Assembly (NCBI GenBank): GCA_027314915.1
Contig: DAHUZZ010000007.1
Coordinates: 1-64,000, forward strand
Length of the DNA stretch: 64,000 nt
Reading direction: 5' to 3'
Source of the DNA: Thermoplasmata archaeon
Lineage (GTDB): Archaea > Thermoplasmatota > Thermoplasmata > Lutacidiplasmatales > UBA184
The translations under genes were made by a program, and so were the position numbers. The notes under the pieces are model-generated. The model was not told the origin of the DNA, made no database searches, and saw only the letters and a list, made by a program, of their open reading frames with translations. This document shows, piece after piece, positions 15,159-20,685 of the stretch; position 1 is the first letter of the stretch; every line of letters begins with the position of its first letter.

Positions 15159-18100
15159 GTGCCGCCGGTGAGCGCGTCTCCCCCGTCGAAGCCCGCTCCT
15201 CCGGCCGCTTCCTCGCCGGCGGTCCACGAGACGGAGGATCCCGGGGGGCTCCTCCACCGCGTGCTGGACGCCTCCACCGAGTACGCCCTCATCACCTCCG
15301 ACCTCACCGGCCAGATCACGCTCTGGAACGAAGGGGCGCACCGCGCCTACGGGTACCCCGTCGAGGAGATCCTCGGCCGGGGCACGCGCACGCTCTACGC
15401 GAGCGAGGACATCAAGGACGGCACCCTCGAGCGGGTCTTCCGCACCGCGCTCGCCCAGGGGAAGTACGAGGGGATCCTCCGGCAGCAGCGGCAGGACGGG
15501 GAGAAGTTCACCGCGCGCATCGTGGTGACGGTGCTGCGGGACCCGGCGGGCCATCCCACCGGCTTCCTGATCGTCGCGAAGGACACCTCGGAGGAGATCA
15601 CGCACCAGCAGCGGCTCATCGAATCCGAGGAGTACTACCGCGGGCTCATCGAGTCCAGCGTCGACGCCATCCTGACGACCGATACCGTCGGGCTCCTCAC
15701 CGACGTGAACCGTCGCTTCGAGGACCTCACGGGGATCGAGCGCGACCAGCTCCTCGGCACGCCGTTCAAGCAGTACTTCTCGGACCCCGCCCGGGCCGAG
15801 GAGGCGATCCGTCGCGTCCTCGCCGAGGACCGGGTGACCAACCTCGAGCTCACGCTCCGGTCGCGCCGGGGGACCCTGACCCAGGTCGCGTACAACGCGA
15901 CGACCTTCCGGGGCCGGGACGGCAAGCTGCGGGGGGTCTTCGCCACCGCCCGCGACATCACCGAGCACAAGGCGCTCGAGGCGGAGCTACGGGACTCGGA
16001 GGCCTACAACCGCGGGCTCATCGAGGCCTCCCTCGACCCGCTCCTCACCGTCGACCACCACGGCGGGGTCACCGACGTGAACCGCCAGATGGAGCGCCTG
16101 CTCGGGCTCCCCCGGGAGGAGATCATCGGCAGCCAGTTCGCCGACCACTTCACGGACGGTCCCCGCGCGTCGGCGGCGATCGCCCGGGCGCTCCGCGAGG
16201 GGTTCGTCGCGGACTGCGAGCTCGAGATCGAGCCGGAGCGGGGCCCGACCCGGATCGTCGCCCTCAACGCCTCCGTGTTCAAGTATCCCGGCGGCCGGGT
16301 CAAGGGGATCGTCGCGTCGGCCCGGGACGTCACCGAGCAGAAGCGGCTCCAGGAGCAGCTCCACGAGTCGCAGCGGTACCACCGGAGCCTCATCGAGGCA
16401 TCGCCGGACGCGCTCGTCGTCGTGGACCCGGACTACGTGATCTCCGACGTCAACGAGCAGATGGTGAAGATGACCGGGTACGCCCGGGCGGAGCTCGTCG
16501 GGGCCCCGTTCAAGAACTTCTTCCGGGAGCCGCACAGCGCGGTCCATGTCGTCCGCCAGACCTTCGAGAAGGGCGTGGCGACGAACTACCAGCTCGAGCT
16601 CGTGCCCCGCGACCGGGCCCCGCTGCCGGTCTCCCTGAGCGCGAGCGTGTTCACGGACCCCTCCGGCCAGGTCAAGGGGGTCTTCGCCTCCGCCCGCGAC
16701 ATCACCGAGCAGCGGGCGCTCGAGGAGAAGCTCCGGGAGTCGCAGAACTACAACCGGGGGCTCATCGAGGGCTCCCCGGACGCGATCTTCATCGTCGACA
16801 CGCAGCTGTACCTCACCGACGTCAACGAGCAGTTCGTCCGGCTCACCCGGCAGTCGCGGCGGCAGCTGCTCAAGTCGCCGTACCTGGACCACTTCGCCGA
16901 CCCCGAGGCGGCCTCGGCGGCGATCCGCCAGACCTTCGAGAAGGGGTCCCTCGCGAACTTCGAGCTGCTCCTCCGGGGGAAGCGCGGCGCGACGACGCCC
17001 ATCTCGCTGAGCGCCTCCGTCTTCCGGGACGTCCACGGCCGGGTCCGGGGGGTCTTCGCGACCGTCCGGGACATCTCCGAGCAGGCCCGGCTCGCCGGGC
17101 AGCTCCGCGAGTCCCAGAGCTACAACCGCAGCCTCATCGAGGCGAGCCCCGACGCGCTCGTCATCGTCGATCCGGTCGGGACGATCACCGACGTGAACCG
17201 CCAGATGGAGGTCCTGACGGGGCTCCCGCGCGAACGGCTCATCGGGACCCCGTTCAAGGACTCCTTCCACCCCTCCGACCGGGCGACGGAGGCGATGCGG
17301 AGGATCCTCGAGCAGGACCGTCTGACCAACTTCGACCTCGCGCTGCTCGCGAGCGACGGCCGGGAGACGCCGATCTCGCTCAACGGCGCGACCATCCACG
17401 GGGCGGACGGGGCGCTCCGGGGGCTCTTCCTGTCGGCCCGGGACATGACGGAGTACCGCCGGCTCGAGCTCGACCTGGTCGAGTCGCAGCACTACAACCG
17501 CAATCTGATCGAGGGCTCGGTGGACTCCCTCGTGGCGGTCGACCCCGACCTCACCATCACCGACGTGAACGAGCAGATGGTGAAGGTCTCGGGCTACCCC
17601 CGGGGCGACCTCCTGGGCTCGCAGTTCTACGAGTACTTCACCGACCCCGGCCGGGCCTCGGACGCCGTGCGCCAGACGCTCGCGCAGGGGACGGTGACCA
17701 ACTTCGAGCTCACGCTGCGGAGCCGGCACGGGCGGCTCCTCCAGGTCTCCTACAACGCCTCGGTGATCAAGAACACCGACGGCCGGGTGGTCGGCATCTT
17801 CGCGTCGGCCCGGGACATCACCGAGCAGAAGCGGCTCCAGGAGCAGCTCCGCGAGTCGCAGCTGTACAACCGCAGCCTGGTCGAGGCGTCCCCCGACGCG
17901 CTCGTGACCGTGGACCCGGACCTCGTCATCACCGACGTCAACGAGGAGTTCGTCCGCACGACCGGATCCTCCCGGGACGCCCTCATCGGCAGCTCCTTCA
18001 AGGACTACTTCAGCGACCCGGACCGGGCGGCCGCCGGGGTCCGCCGGACGCTGCGGGAGGGCTCGGTCGCGAACTACGAGCTCCTCCTGAACTCCGTGGA

Positions 18101-19754
18101 CGGCCGGCGCACGCTCGTCTCGCTGAACGCCGCGGTCTTCCGCGACAGCGAGGGCCGGATCGTCGGGATCTTCGCCTCGGCCCGGGACATCTCCGAGCAG
18201 AAGCGGACCGAGGAGAAGCTCCGGGAGTCGCAGAACTACAACCGGGGGCTCATCGAGGCGTCGCCCGACGCCCTCGTCACCGTCGCGCCGGACCTCGTCA
18301 TCACCGACGTGAACGAGCAGATGGTCCGGCTCACGGGCTTCGCCCGGAAGCACCTCATCGGCAGCCGGTTCCCCGAGCTGTTCGTCGAGCCCCGGTGGGC
18401 CGAGCACGGGGTGCGGCGCGCGCTCGAGGAGAACACCGTCTCGAACTACGAGCTCATGCTCCGCAAGCGGAACGGGCAGCGCATCCCCGTGTCGTTCAAC
18501 GCCGGGACCGCCTACGACATGGCCGGCAACGTCCGGGGGGTCCTCGCCACCGCCCGGGACATCACCGAGCAGAAGCGGCTCGAGGCCCAGCTCCGCGAGT
18601 CGCAGAACTACAACCGGGGCCTGGTGGAGTCCAACGTCGACGCGCTCATGACGACGGACGTGCTCGGGATCATCACCGACGTCAACCGGCAGATGGAGGT
18701 GGTGACCGGGCTGACCCGGGAGCAGCTCATCGGGACCCCGTTCAAGAAGTACTTCACCGACCCGGCGCTGGCCGAGGAGGGGATCCGCCGGGCCCTGAAC
18801 GAGAACAAGGTCACCGACTTCGAGCTCACCATCTGCGCCGCGGGCGGGAAGACCGTCGACGTCTCCTACAACGCCACGACCTTCCGGGACACGGAGGGGC
18901 GGCTCCGCGGCGTCTTCGCCTCCGCCCGGGACATCGTCGAGGCCAAGCGGCTCCGCCAGCAGCTCGAGCAGAAGAACCGGGGGCTCGAGATCCAGAACGA
19001 GCGGGTGCAGGAGGCGAACCGGATGAAGAGCGAGTTCCTGGCCAACATGTCCCACGAGCTCCGGACGCCGCTCAACAGCATCATCGGGTTCTCGGAGTTC
19101 CTCCTCTCCTCCGACGACCGGTCCACCCCGGAGGAACAGCAGGAGTACCTCTCCTACATCCTGAGCAGCGGCCGGCACCTCCTCCAGCTCATCAACGATG
19201 TCCTCGACCTCGCCAAGGTCGAGGCCGGCAAGCTCGAGCTCTTCCCCGGTCCGTTCTCCGCGCCGCGCGCCGTCGCCGAGGTCTGCGCGATGGTGAAGCC
19301 CCAGGTCGAGGAGAAGCACCTCCACCTGGAGACCACGATCGCCCCCGAGATCGGCACCGTGACGCTCGACATGCTGCGGTTCAAGCAGATCCTGTACAAC
19401 CTCGTCTCGAACGCGGTGAAGTTCACCGACGAGGGCGGCCGGGTCGAGGTCCAGCTCGCGCCCCAGACGGAGCGGGCGTTCGTCCTCAAGGTCACCGACA
19501 CGGGCATCGGGATCGCGCCGGAGGACCTCCCCCGGCTCTTCCGCGAGTTCGAGCAGCTCGATGCCGGGCCCGGCCGCCGCTTCCAGGGCTCGGGGCTCGG
19601 GCTGTCGCTCACGCGCCGCCTGGTCGAGCTCCACGGCGGCACCATCGAGGTGACGAGCCGGCTCGGCGTCGGGTCCGCCTTCACCGTCACCCTGCCGCTC
19701 AGCGTGGGCGGCCCGGGCGACCACGCCTCCGACCCGACGGAGGTCCCCGCGTAG
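15159..19754 (+). CDS. Multi-PAS sensor histidine kinase (10 PAS domains + HisKA + HATPase)
   Basis: One divergent plus nine tandem PAS units (YNRGLIEASPDALVTVDPDLVITDVNEQMVRLTG type); FLANMSHELRTPLNSIIGFSEFL; NAVKFTDEGG; DTGIGIAPEDL; GSGLGLSLTRRLVELHGG. GTG start. Confidence 0.95.
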   Translation: MPPVSASPPSKPAPPAASSPAVHETEDPGGLLHRVLDASTEYALITSDLTGQITLWNEGAHRAYGYPVEEILGRGTRTLYASEDIKDGTLERVFRTALAQGKYEGILRQQRQDGEKFTARIVVTVLRDPAGHPTGFLIVAKDTSEEITHQQRLIESEEYYRGLIESSVDAILTTDTVGLLTDVNRRFEDLTGIERDQLLGTPFKQYFSDPARAEEAIRRVLAEDRVTNLELTLRSRRGTLTQVAYNATTFRGRDGKLRGVFATARDITEHKALEAELRDSEAYNRGLIEASLDPLLTVDHHGGVTDVNRQMERLLGLPREEIIGSQFADHFTDGPRASAAIARALREGFVADCELEIEPERGPTRIVALNASVFKYPGGRVKGIVASARDVTEQKRLQEQLHESQRYHRSLIEASPDALVVVDPDYVISDVNEQMVKMTGYARAELVGAPFKNFFREPHSAVHVVRQTFEKGVATNYQLELVPRDRAPLPVSLSASVFTDPSGQVKGVFASARDITEQRALEEKLRESQNYNRGLIEGSPDAIFIVDTQLYLTDVNEQFVRLTRQSRRQLLKSPYLDHFADPEAASAAIRQTFEKGSLANFELLLRGKRGATTPISLSASVFRDVHGRVRGVFATVRDISEQARLAGQLRESQSYNRSLIEASPDALVIVDPVGTITDVNRQMEVLTGLPRERLIGTPFKDSFHPSDRATEAMRRILEQDRLTNFDLALLASDGRETPISLNGATIHGADGALRGLFLSARDMTEYRRLELDLVESQHYNRNLIEGSVDSLVAVDPDLTITDVNEQMVKVSGYPRGDLLGSQFYEYFTDPGRASDAVRQTLAQGTVTNFELTLRSRHGRLLQVSYNASVIKNTDGRVVGIFASARDITEQKRLQEQLRESQLYNRSLVEASPDALVTVDPDLVITDVNEEFVRTTGSSRDALIGSSFKDYFSDPDRAAAGVRRTLREGSVANYELLLNSVDGRRTLVSLNAAVFRDSEGRIVGIFASARDISEQKRTEEKLRESQNYNRGLIEASPDALVTVAPDLVITDVNEQMVRLTGFARKHLIGSRFPELFVEPRWAEHGVRRALEENTVSNYELMLRKRNGQRIPVSFNAGTAYDMAGNVRGVLATARDITEQKRLEAQLRESQNYNRGLVESNVDALMTTDVLGIITDVNRQMEVVTGLTREQLIGTPFKKYFTDPALAEEGIRRALNENKVTDFELTICAAGGKTVDVSYNATTFRDTEGRLRGVFASARDIVEAKRLRQQLEQKNRGLEIQNERVQEANRMKSEFLANMSHELRTPLNSIIGFSEFLLSSDDRSTPEEQQEYLSYILSSGRHLLQLINDVLDLAKVEAGKLELFPGPFSAPRAVAEVCAMVKPQVEEKHLHLETTIAPEIGTVTLDMLRFKQILYNLVSNAVKFTDEGGRVEVQLAPQTERAFVLKVTDTGIGIAPEDLPRLFREFEQLDAGPGRRFQGSGLGLSLTRRLVELHGGTIEVTSRLGVGSAFTVTLPLSVGGPGDHASDPTEVPA
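15633..18980 (+). repeat. Nine tandem PAS-encoding units of 372 bp
   Basis: Unit-start Tyr codons at 15633, 16005, 16377, 16749, 17121, 17493, 17865, 18237 and 18609; every interval is exactly 372 nt. Confidence 0.95.
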
Positions 19755-19765
19755 GGGGTGCCACC

Positions 19766-20170
19766 ATGGCCCGCATCCTGCTCGTCGAGGACAACCCGCT
19801 CAACGCCAAGCTCGCGCGGGTGATCCTCGAGCGGGCCGGCTACCGGGTGGAGGTCGCGGCCGACGCGCCGGAGGCCGAGCAGTCGATCCGGGCGATGCGA
19901 CCGGACCTCATCTTGATGGACCTGGGGCTGCCGGGGAAGGACGGCTACACGCTCACCCACGAGCTCCGGCAGGCGCCGGAGACCCACGACATCCCTGTCC
20001 TAGCGGTAACGTCGTTTGCGATGAAGGGTGATGAACAGAAGGCCATGGAGGCAGGATGCAGCGGGTACCTCACCAAGCCGATAAGCCGGGAGAGTATGTT
20101 GCGCGAAGTGCGCGGGCTGCTCGACCGGTCTTCGGGGCCGGACGGGACGCCACGGGCGGAGGGTATATGA
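19766..20170 (+). CDS. Response regulator, CheY-like receiver domain
   Basis: RILLVEDNPLNAKLARVIL, DLILMDLGLPGKDG, PVLAVTSFAMKGD, GYLTKPIS. Confidence 0.95.
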   Translation: MARILLVEDNPLNAKLARVILERAGYRVEVAADAPEAEQSIRAMRPDLILMDLGLPGKDGYTLTHELRQAPETHDIPVLAVTSFAMKGDEQKAMEAGCSGYLTKPISRESMLREVRGLLDRSSGPDGTPRAEGI

Positions 20171-20685
20171 CGAGCTACCGGGACCGGGAGACCTCGAGCT
20201 TTAGCGGACGCGGCGATCACGACGCGGCCTCGCTCCGGATCCTCGCGGTCGAGGATTCGCCGTCGGCCCGGAAGCTGTTCCAGGGGCTCCTCCTGCGGCT
20301 CGGGGTGGGGCTGCCGGACCTGCGCTTCGCCTCGAACTCGTCGGAGGCGCTCCAGCTCTTCACGCAGTGGCGACCGGACCTCGTCTTCGTCGACGTCGAG
20401 CTCCGGGCCCAGCCCGCGGCCCGGCCGGCGACCCTCGGGGCCTCGCCGCCCGAGCCGAACCCGCCGGCGCCCGTCGACGGCGACGACCTCGCGCGCCAGC
20501 TCCTCGACCGGAACCCGCGGCTCAACCTGGTCGTCGTCACGGCCTTCGACCCGGACCACCCCCGGGTGAAGGCGCTCGTCCAGCGGGGGGCCGCCGACGT
20601 GATCGTGAAGCCCGTCCTCGCCGCCCGGGTCCAGGAGGTCCTCGAGAGGTTCTCCGGGCCCAAGGTGAACGACCGGCGCCGCTAG
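20167..20685 (+). CDS. Receiver-domain protein with Pro/Ala-rich insertion after the phosphoacceptor Asp
   Basis: LRILAVEDSPSARKLFQ, DLVFVDVEL, LVVVTAFDPDHP, VIVKPVLAARV. ATG overlaps the upstream stop (ATGA 20167-20170). Confidence 0.85.
   Translation: MTSYRDRETSSFSGRGDHDAASLRILAVEDSPSARKLFQGLLLRLGVGLPDLRFASNSSEALQLFTQWRPDLVFVDVELRAQPAARPATLGASPPEPNPPAPVDGDDLARQLLDRNPRLNLVVVTAFDPDHPRVKALVQRGAADVIVKPVLAARVQEVLERFSGPKVNDRRR

Follow-up and report, generated by a model that had tools for sequence, protein, structure and literature searches.

A stand-alone archaeal receiver with an enlarged beta3-alpha3 loop, encoded behind a multi-PAS histidine kinase

The window analyzed here, a stretch of 64,000 nucleotides from a Thermoplasmata archaeon, carries a histidine kinase gene followed on the same strand by two receiver genes, the second of which encodes a receiver with an enlarged loop just after its phospho-acceptor Asp (hereafter the insert-receiver). 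The features are as follows.

15159..19754, + strand: multi-PAS histidine kinase, 1531 aa, with HisKA and HATPase_c but neither a receiver nor an HPt domain (Pfam; clade-A gene order)
19766..20170, + strand: canonical stand-alone receiver, 134 aa, without the loop insertion (Pfam Response_reg in one piece, 1.6e-28)
20167..20170, + strand: ATGA overlap between the stop of the first receiver and the start of the insert-receiver (sequence; NTGA in 14 of the 16 clade-A loci)
20167..20685, + strand: insert-bearing stand-alone receiver, 172 aa (translation, two-piece Pfam match, AlphaFold receiver fold, 36 further family members)
20392..20394, + strand: codon of the phospho-acceptor D76 (invariant in alignments)
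20404..20478, + strand: expanded beta3-alpha3 loop, residues 80-104, RAQPAARPATLGASPPEPNPPAPVD (alignment; pLDDT below 50 at residues 86-94)

The kinase gives ten PAS matches together with HisKA (1.6e-24) and HATPase_c (5e-29) in Pfam and adjoins a receiver, the pairing by which a two-component system is recognized. In the window's own clade of relatives (clade A, see below), the gene order is uniform, all on one strand: kinase, canonical receiver and insert-receiver follow each other in 16 loci, the kinase being seen wherever the contig reaches it. Besides the 14 loci with the NTGA overlap, one has abutting receiver genes and one could not be resolved. An earlier note on this DNA, made from the sequence alone, had described a receiver coupled by ATGA to a canonical one behind a giant PAS kinase, and both observations hold well beyond the window. 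The number of detected PAS domains ranges from 1 to 10 per clade-A kinase, indicating that the PAS array has expanded or contracted across orthologous operons. Of note, the window's kinase contains repeats of ~124 residues, many pairs of which are 40-60% identical. Gene order thus supports a system of one kinase and two receivers in the window.

The region 20167-20685 is a single open frame whose translation reads DLVFVDVEL-RAQPAARPATLGASPPEPNPPAPV-DGDDLARQLL. Pfam Response_reg (PF00072) matches it at 8.8e-13, above the curated cut-off (48.8 bits vs 30.2), the match being broken in two by the insert, with the first piece spanning residues 25-79; likewise, receivers from the PDB align in two pieces, ending at residue 79 and resuming at residue 103. 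The AlphaFold model shows the five strands and five helices of the (beta-alpha)5 fold that characterizes receiver domains, and its top matches in structure comparison are PDB receivers (TM up to 0.89 by target), the nearest solved structures being ordinary receivers. The acid pair E29-D30, the phospho-Asp D76, T125 and K148 are all retained, as the earlier note had read for the acidic residues and the Lys. Indeed, D76, K148 and a Thr/Ser at position 125 are invariant across 37/37 homologues, and the acid pair reads ED or DD in all but three clade-A members, which have EN, and the truncated L089, from which it is absent. The three, L025, L069 and L070, carry Asn as the second acid of the metal-binding pair (VENS). 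Conservation of these residues supports a genuine receiver with an intact catalytic set, expected to be phosphorylatable as far as sequence can predict, and rules out a degenerate pseudo-receiver.

What sets this protein apart is the stretch that follows the phospho-Asp. The Gly that starts the next helix (G105) is separated from D+3 (L79) by 25 residues, against 4 in a canonical receiver. As the spacing from D76 to G105 is 28 residues vs 7 in canonical receivers, the net insertion amounts to 21; the insertion announced by the earlier note is therefore real, if slightly smaller than the "about 25" residues it gave. The usual gamma-turn, with Pro at D+4 and Gly at D+8, is not formed by these residues, D+4 being Arg and the Gly being displaced to D+29. 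Both positions are common in receivers without being required for membership of the domain family. In bacterial receivers the Pro is found in 88% and the Gly in 91% of sequences (PMC8510515), which makes an expansion at exactly this place unusual. Among the 122 receivers of the compared DNA, an insertion of at least 10 residues at the loop position was found in the 36 family sequences and in only two others, a concentration beyond chance. The insert of the window is predicted to be disordered, since AlphaFold renders the loop as a low-confidence coil (pLDDT below 50 at residues 86-94) on a confidently modelled receiver fold, in a run that drew on three aligned sequences and whose models 2-5 were of lower confidence.

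Relatives were sought in 60 related genomes and then, with a profile, over 103 genomes of the same family. The profile search gave 42 places in 32 genomes belonging to 5 of the 7 genera, three of the places being short fragments. Removal of duplicates left 37 distinct homologues, 36 complete over the domain and one cut at a contig end; all come from one Thermoplasmata family and 37/37 have the insert at the same place. The closest named records are metagenome-assembled genomes of Thermoplasmata. The short contig G005:C135 carries an insert-receiver with the very sequence of the one on G087:C143 (L034/L065), which might reflect a cross-binned contig. Outside the family, sampling of 390 phylum genomes and 400 class genomes yielded no additional full-length match with an insert; a spread of the lineage beyond the family was rejected on this basis. 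The matches obtained there are canonical receivers, mostly reported in two adjacent pieces, with two exceptions from other families of the phylum: L090, which has a 13-residue acidic insertion in the same loop, and the distant L100, which has one of 17 residues. In what could be searched, the insert-receiver lineage is thus restricted to a single family. Being genuine and present in all complete relatives found, the insert sets a receiver lineage apart and is not an error.

In a tree built without the insert columns, which rests on few columns and has only some well-supported forks, the 36 family insert-receivers form two clusters within one clade (support 98). Seven receivers of other Thermoplasmatota families group there as well, among them the short-insert L090. 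Clade A, the window's, is distinct, with 16 rows and a support of 99. The canonical receivers paired with its members likewise form a clade of their own (support 98) with several matching subgroups, consistent with joint inheritance of the two receivers. Regarding the other loci, 12 lie beside operons of a histidine kinase, an Rcp1-like receiver and a REC-HPt protein (clade B; two of them are cut by contig ends), and the remaining nine, called C, are not a single clade.

Clade-A inserts differ sharply from the receiver core in composition: Pro, Ala, Gly and Ser make up 59% of the insert vs 27% of the core, Pro 22% vs 6%, and hydrophobic residues 7% vs 39%. They also change faster. In six clade-A pairs (window/L021, L034/L068, L022/L067, L070/L069, L078/L080 and L071/L073), amino-acid change is 2.3-4.4 times as high in the insert as in the core and pN/pS is ~0.6-0.9 vs 0.2-0.4; these values are rough, synonymous sites being close to saturated and the alignment of the insert in part arbitrary. 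The alignment of clade-A inserts reveals no conserved motif. In the sister clade, a hydrophobic motif (FDILSRPR, LDLLxxPR, FFGFLxxxP and similar types), followed by a Pro-containing stretch, is conserved in the second half of the insert (L072, L074, L076, L077, L079, L081, L083 and L085-L089). Constraint on the insert sequence thus appears weak in the window's clade and clearer in a sister clade. Measured from D+3 to the Gly, insert length is 18-25 residues within clade A and 18-29 over all family homologues. The N-terminal extension, taken as a control for length, is more variable (9-30 residues), but it splits by subclade and row L073 was misread, so that this control was given little weight. 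No tandem repeat was detected in the insert stretch, and an origin by tandem-repeat expansion was accordingly rejected.

Neighboring genes relate the lineage to HPt-containing systems. Except at contig ends, clade-B insert-receivers lie tail-to-tail with an operon encoding a kinase, an Rcp1-like receiver and a receiver-HPt protein. Among the C loci, two are next to hybrid kinase-receiver-HPt proteins; of the others, some border a set of kinase, receiver and receiver-HPt genes and some occur alone. In L027 (6261-11070) and L028 (6165-10995), one kinase / receiver / receiver-HPt set has a different insert-receiver on each side. Moreover, L149 and L150, relatives from outside the family, adjoin an HPt. 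Over the 103 family genomes, 15 of the 23 HPt matches are next to an insert-receiver, whole or fragmentary. An HPt is found in 17/19 genomes with B- or C-type loci vs 0/12 with clade A only (Fisher p ~6e-7, uncorrected for relatedness). At E<=0.001 none was detected in these 12 genomes, including the window's (~84% complete), and a family-specific HPt profile gave nothing convincing in clade-A genomes either (best value 0.003; 6.5e-36 for the positive control G010). The gene order in the other clades suggests a lineage of terminal receivers, whose ancestor would have closed an HPt relay, while the window's clade would now operate with one kinase and two receivers.

The earlier note had proposed a dual-receiver phosphorelay. 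The kinase and two-receiver operon stands, but the HPt that a multistep phosphorelay in the strict sense calls for is neither present in the window's operon nor recognized in its ~84% complete genome. As clade-A genomes have no recognizable HPt, calling the window's system a phosphorelay lacks support. A link of the insert to HPt recognition only is likewise disfavored, the insert being kept in these same genomes. The loop may, as the note also supposed, gate phosphorylation or the binding of a partner.

Taken together, these data are best explained by a working stand-alone receiver of the CheY-like kind, in which the beta3-alpha3 loop grew by ~14-25 residues early in the history of the family. 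As for what the loop does, our preferred reading, to which we give a probability of about 0.42, is that of a flexible or disordered flap, selected for its length, that tunes access to the phospho-Asp. The multi-PAS kinase would phosphorylate both receivers, and the insert-receiver, having no effector domain, would act as an output arm through protein-protein contact. The loop, in the least certain step of this proposal, would lie by the phospho-Asp and the face on which a kinase or an HPt docks, and might there influence the choice of the donor between the two receivers and the lifetime of the phosphoryl group, no specific motif being needed in clade A. In favor of such a flap, the catalytic residues and the enlarged loop are always kept, the gene is locked into the kinase, receiver and insert-receiver operon, and insert length stays within its narrow range in clade A despite fast amino-acid change, a constancy to be read knowing that 16 related sequences represent few independent length changes. 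Against it, a loop can be tolerated without function. Moreover, clade B, where the donor is likely an HPt, and clade A, where it is likely the kinase itself, both keep the loop, which weakens any donor-specific role. A broader scenario, in which a disordered, length-selected loop served as a tunable lid on the active site, first in an HPt relay and later also in a branch that dropped the HPt and turned into a system of one kinase and two receivers, is an unlikely one on present evidence.

That the loop is idle, a surface segment enlarged early in the family, then tolerated and left to drift on a receiver acting like any CheY-like one, is somewhat doubtful to us, yet this explanation ranks close behind the flap. 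It accounts well for the near-neutral change and the Pro/Ala/Gly/Ser-rich, hydrophobic-poor composition seen in clade A, in a GC-rich genome that readily makes such codons. It accounts less well for the lack of any loss or strong shortening in complete family members, with never fewer than 18 residues where 4 suffice, for the hydrophobic motif conserved in the sister clade, and for an expansion that covers positions normally strongly conserved. The earlier note had itself considered that the insert might be common and non-functional in homologues: universal in the lineage and near-neutral in sequence it is, but its length range is narrow. Docking, whereby the insert would bind an output target or the kinase or HPt through a short motif, seems to us improbable for the window, although the motif and Pro-containing stretch kept in clade B would suit it and disordered Pro-rich inserts of fungal receivers such as Ssk1 have been proposed to bind targets (PMC8510515). 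Those inserts sit in other loops, and clade A has neither a conserved motif nor more than a few hydrophobic residues in its inserts, so that docking is a better explanation for the sister clade than for the window. Still less probable is a complete relay of the His-Asp-His-Asp type, ending at the insert-receiver and using an HPt encoded elsewhere: it is in line with the frequent adjacency of HPt matches and insert-receivers in the family and at odds with the contrast between clade-A-only genomes and those of the other type. Finally, an error of sequencing or assembly, or a wrong gene model, has a negligible probability. In-frame inserts occur at the same place in independent genomes, in a stretch without tandem repeats, and the sequencing indel entertained by the earlier note, like a frameshift, is refuted by every homologue.

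Few parts of receivers are as well conserved as the turn following the phospho-Asp, and this turn contributes to holding the metal and the partner. A lineage that retains a long, probably disordered stretch at this place and an intact catalytic set offers a natural test of how much of the turn is necessary for phosphotransfer. Within a single family, it is also possible to compare an HPt relay with a related one-kinase, two-receiver system devoid of HPt. Archaeal stand-alone receivers are mostly found outside conserved neighborhoods, and a fixed operon is hence a useful handle.

Receivers without an output domain are themselves familiar in archaea, where they account for ~40% of response regulators; a census of 2018 found only 3 kinases and 4 regulators in 11 Thermoplasmata genomes (PMC5847659). 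These alignments show a conserved receiver lineage with an enlarged active-site loop; in the literature consulted, whose coverage was incomplete and included few subscription journals, no receiver lineage with a Pro-rich or long disordered beta3-alpha3 insertion is described. Like archaeal CheY-like stand-alone receivers, the insert-receiver is a single domain with the phospho-Asp, the acid pair, the Thr/Ser and the Lys and without an output domain; unlike them, it has a loop longer by ~21 residues, no Pro turn at D+4 and a distribution limited to one family. The methanogen FilI/FilR1/FilR2 system also combines one kinase with two regulators, one being a stand-alone receiver (PMC5847659), whereas both regulators are stand-alone receivers in the window, with no DNA-binding partner in the operon. 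In the plant receptor ETR1, the same beta3-alpha3 loop (gamma loop) is altered and its flipped conformation has been proposed to control, indeed to prevent, phosphorylation of the Asp (PMC4972365); it bears no long disordered insertion, and the likeness is one of loop position. Fungal Ssk1 and several groups of hybrid kinases share with the insert-receiver a large, Pro-rich and disordered insert inside the receiver domain, but theirs is located in the alpha2-beta3 or alpha3-beta4 loops, away from the active-site turn (PMC8510515), whereas the insert of the window directly follows the phospho-Asp.
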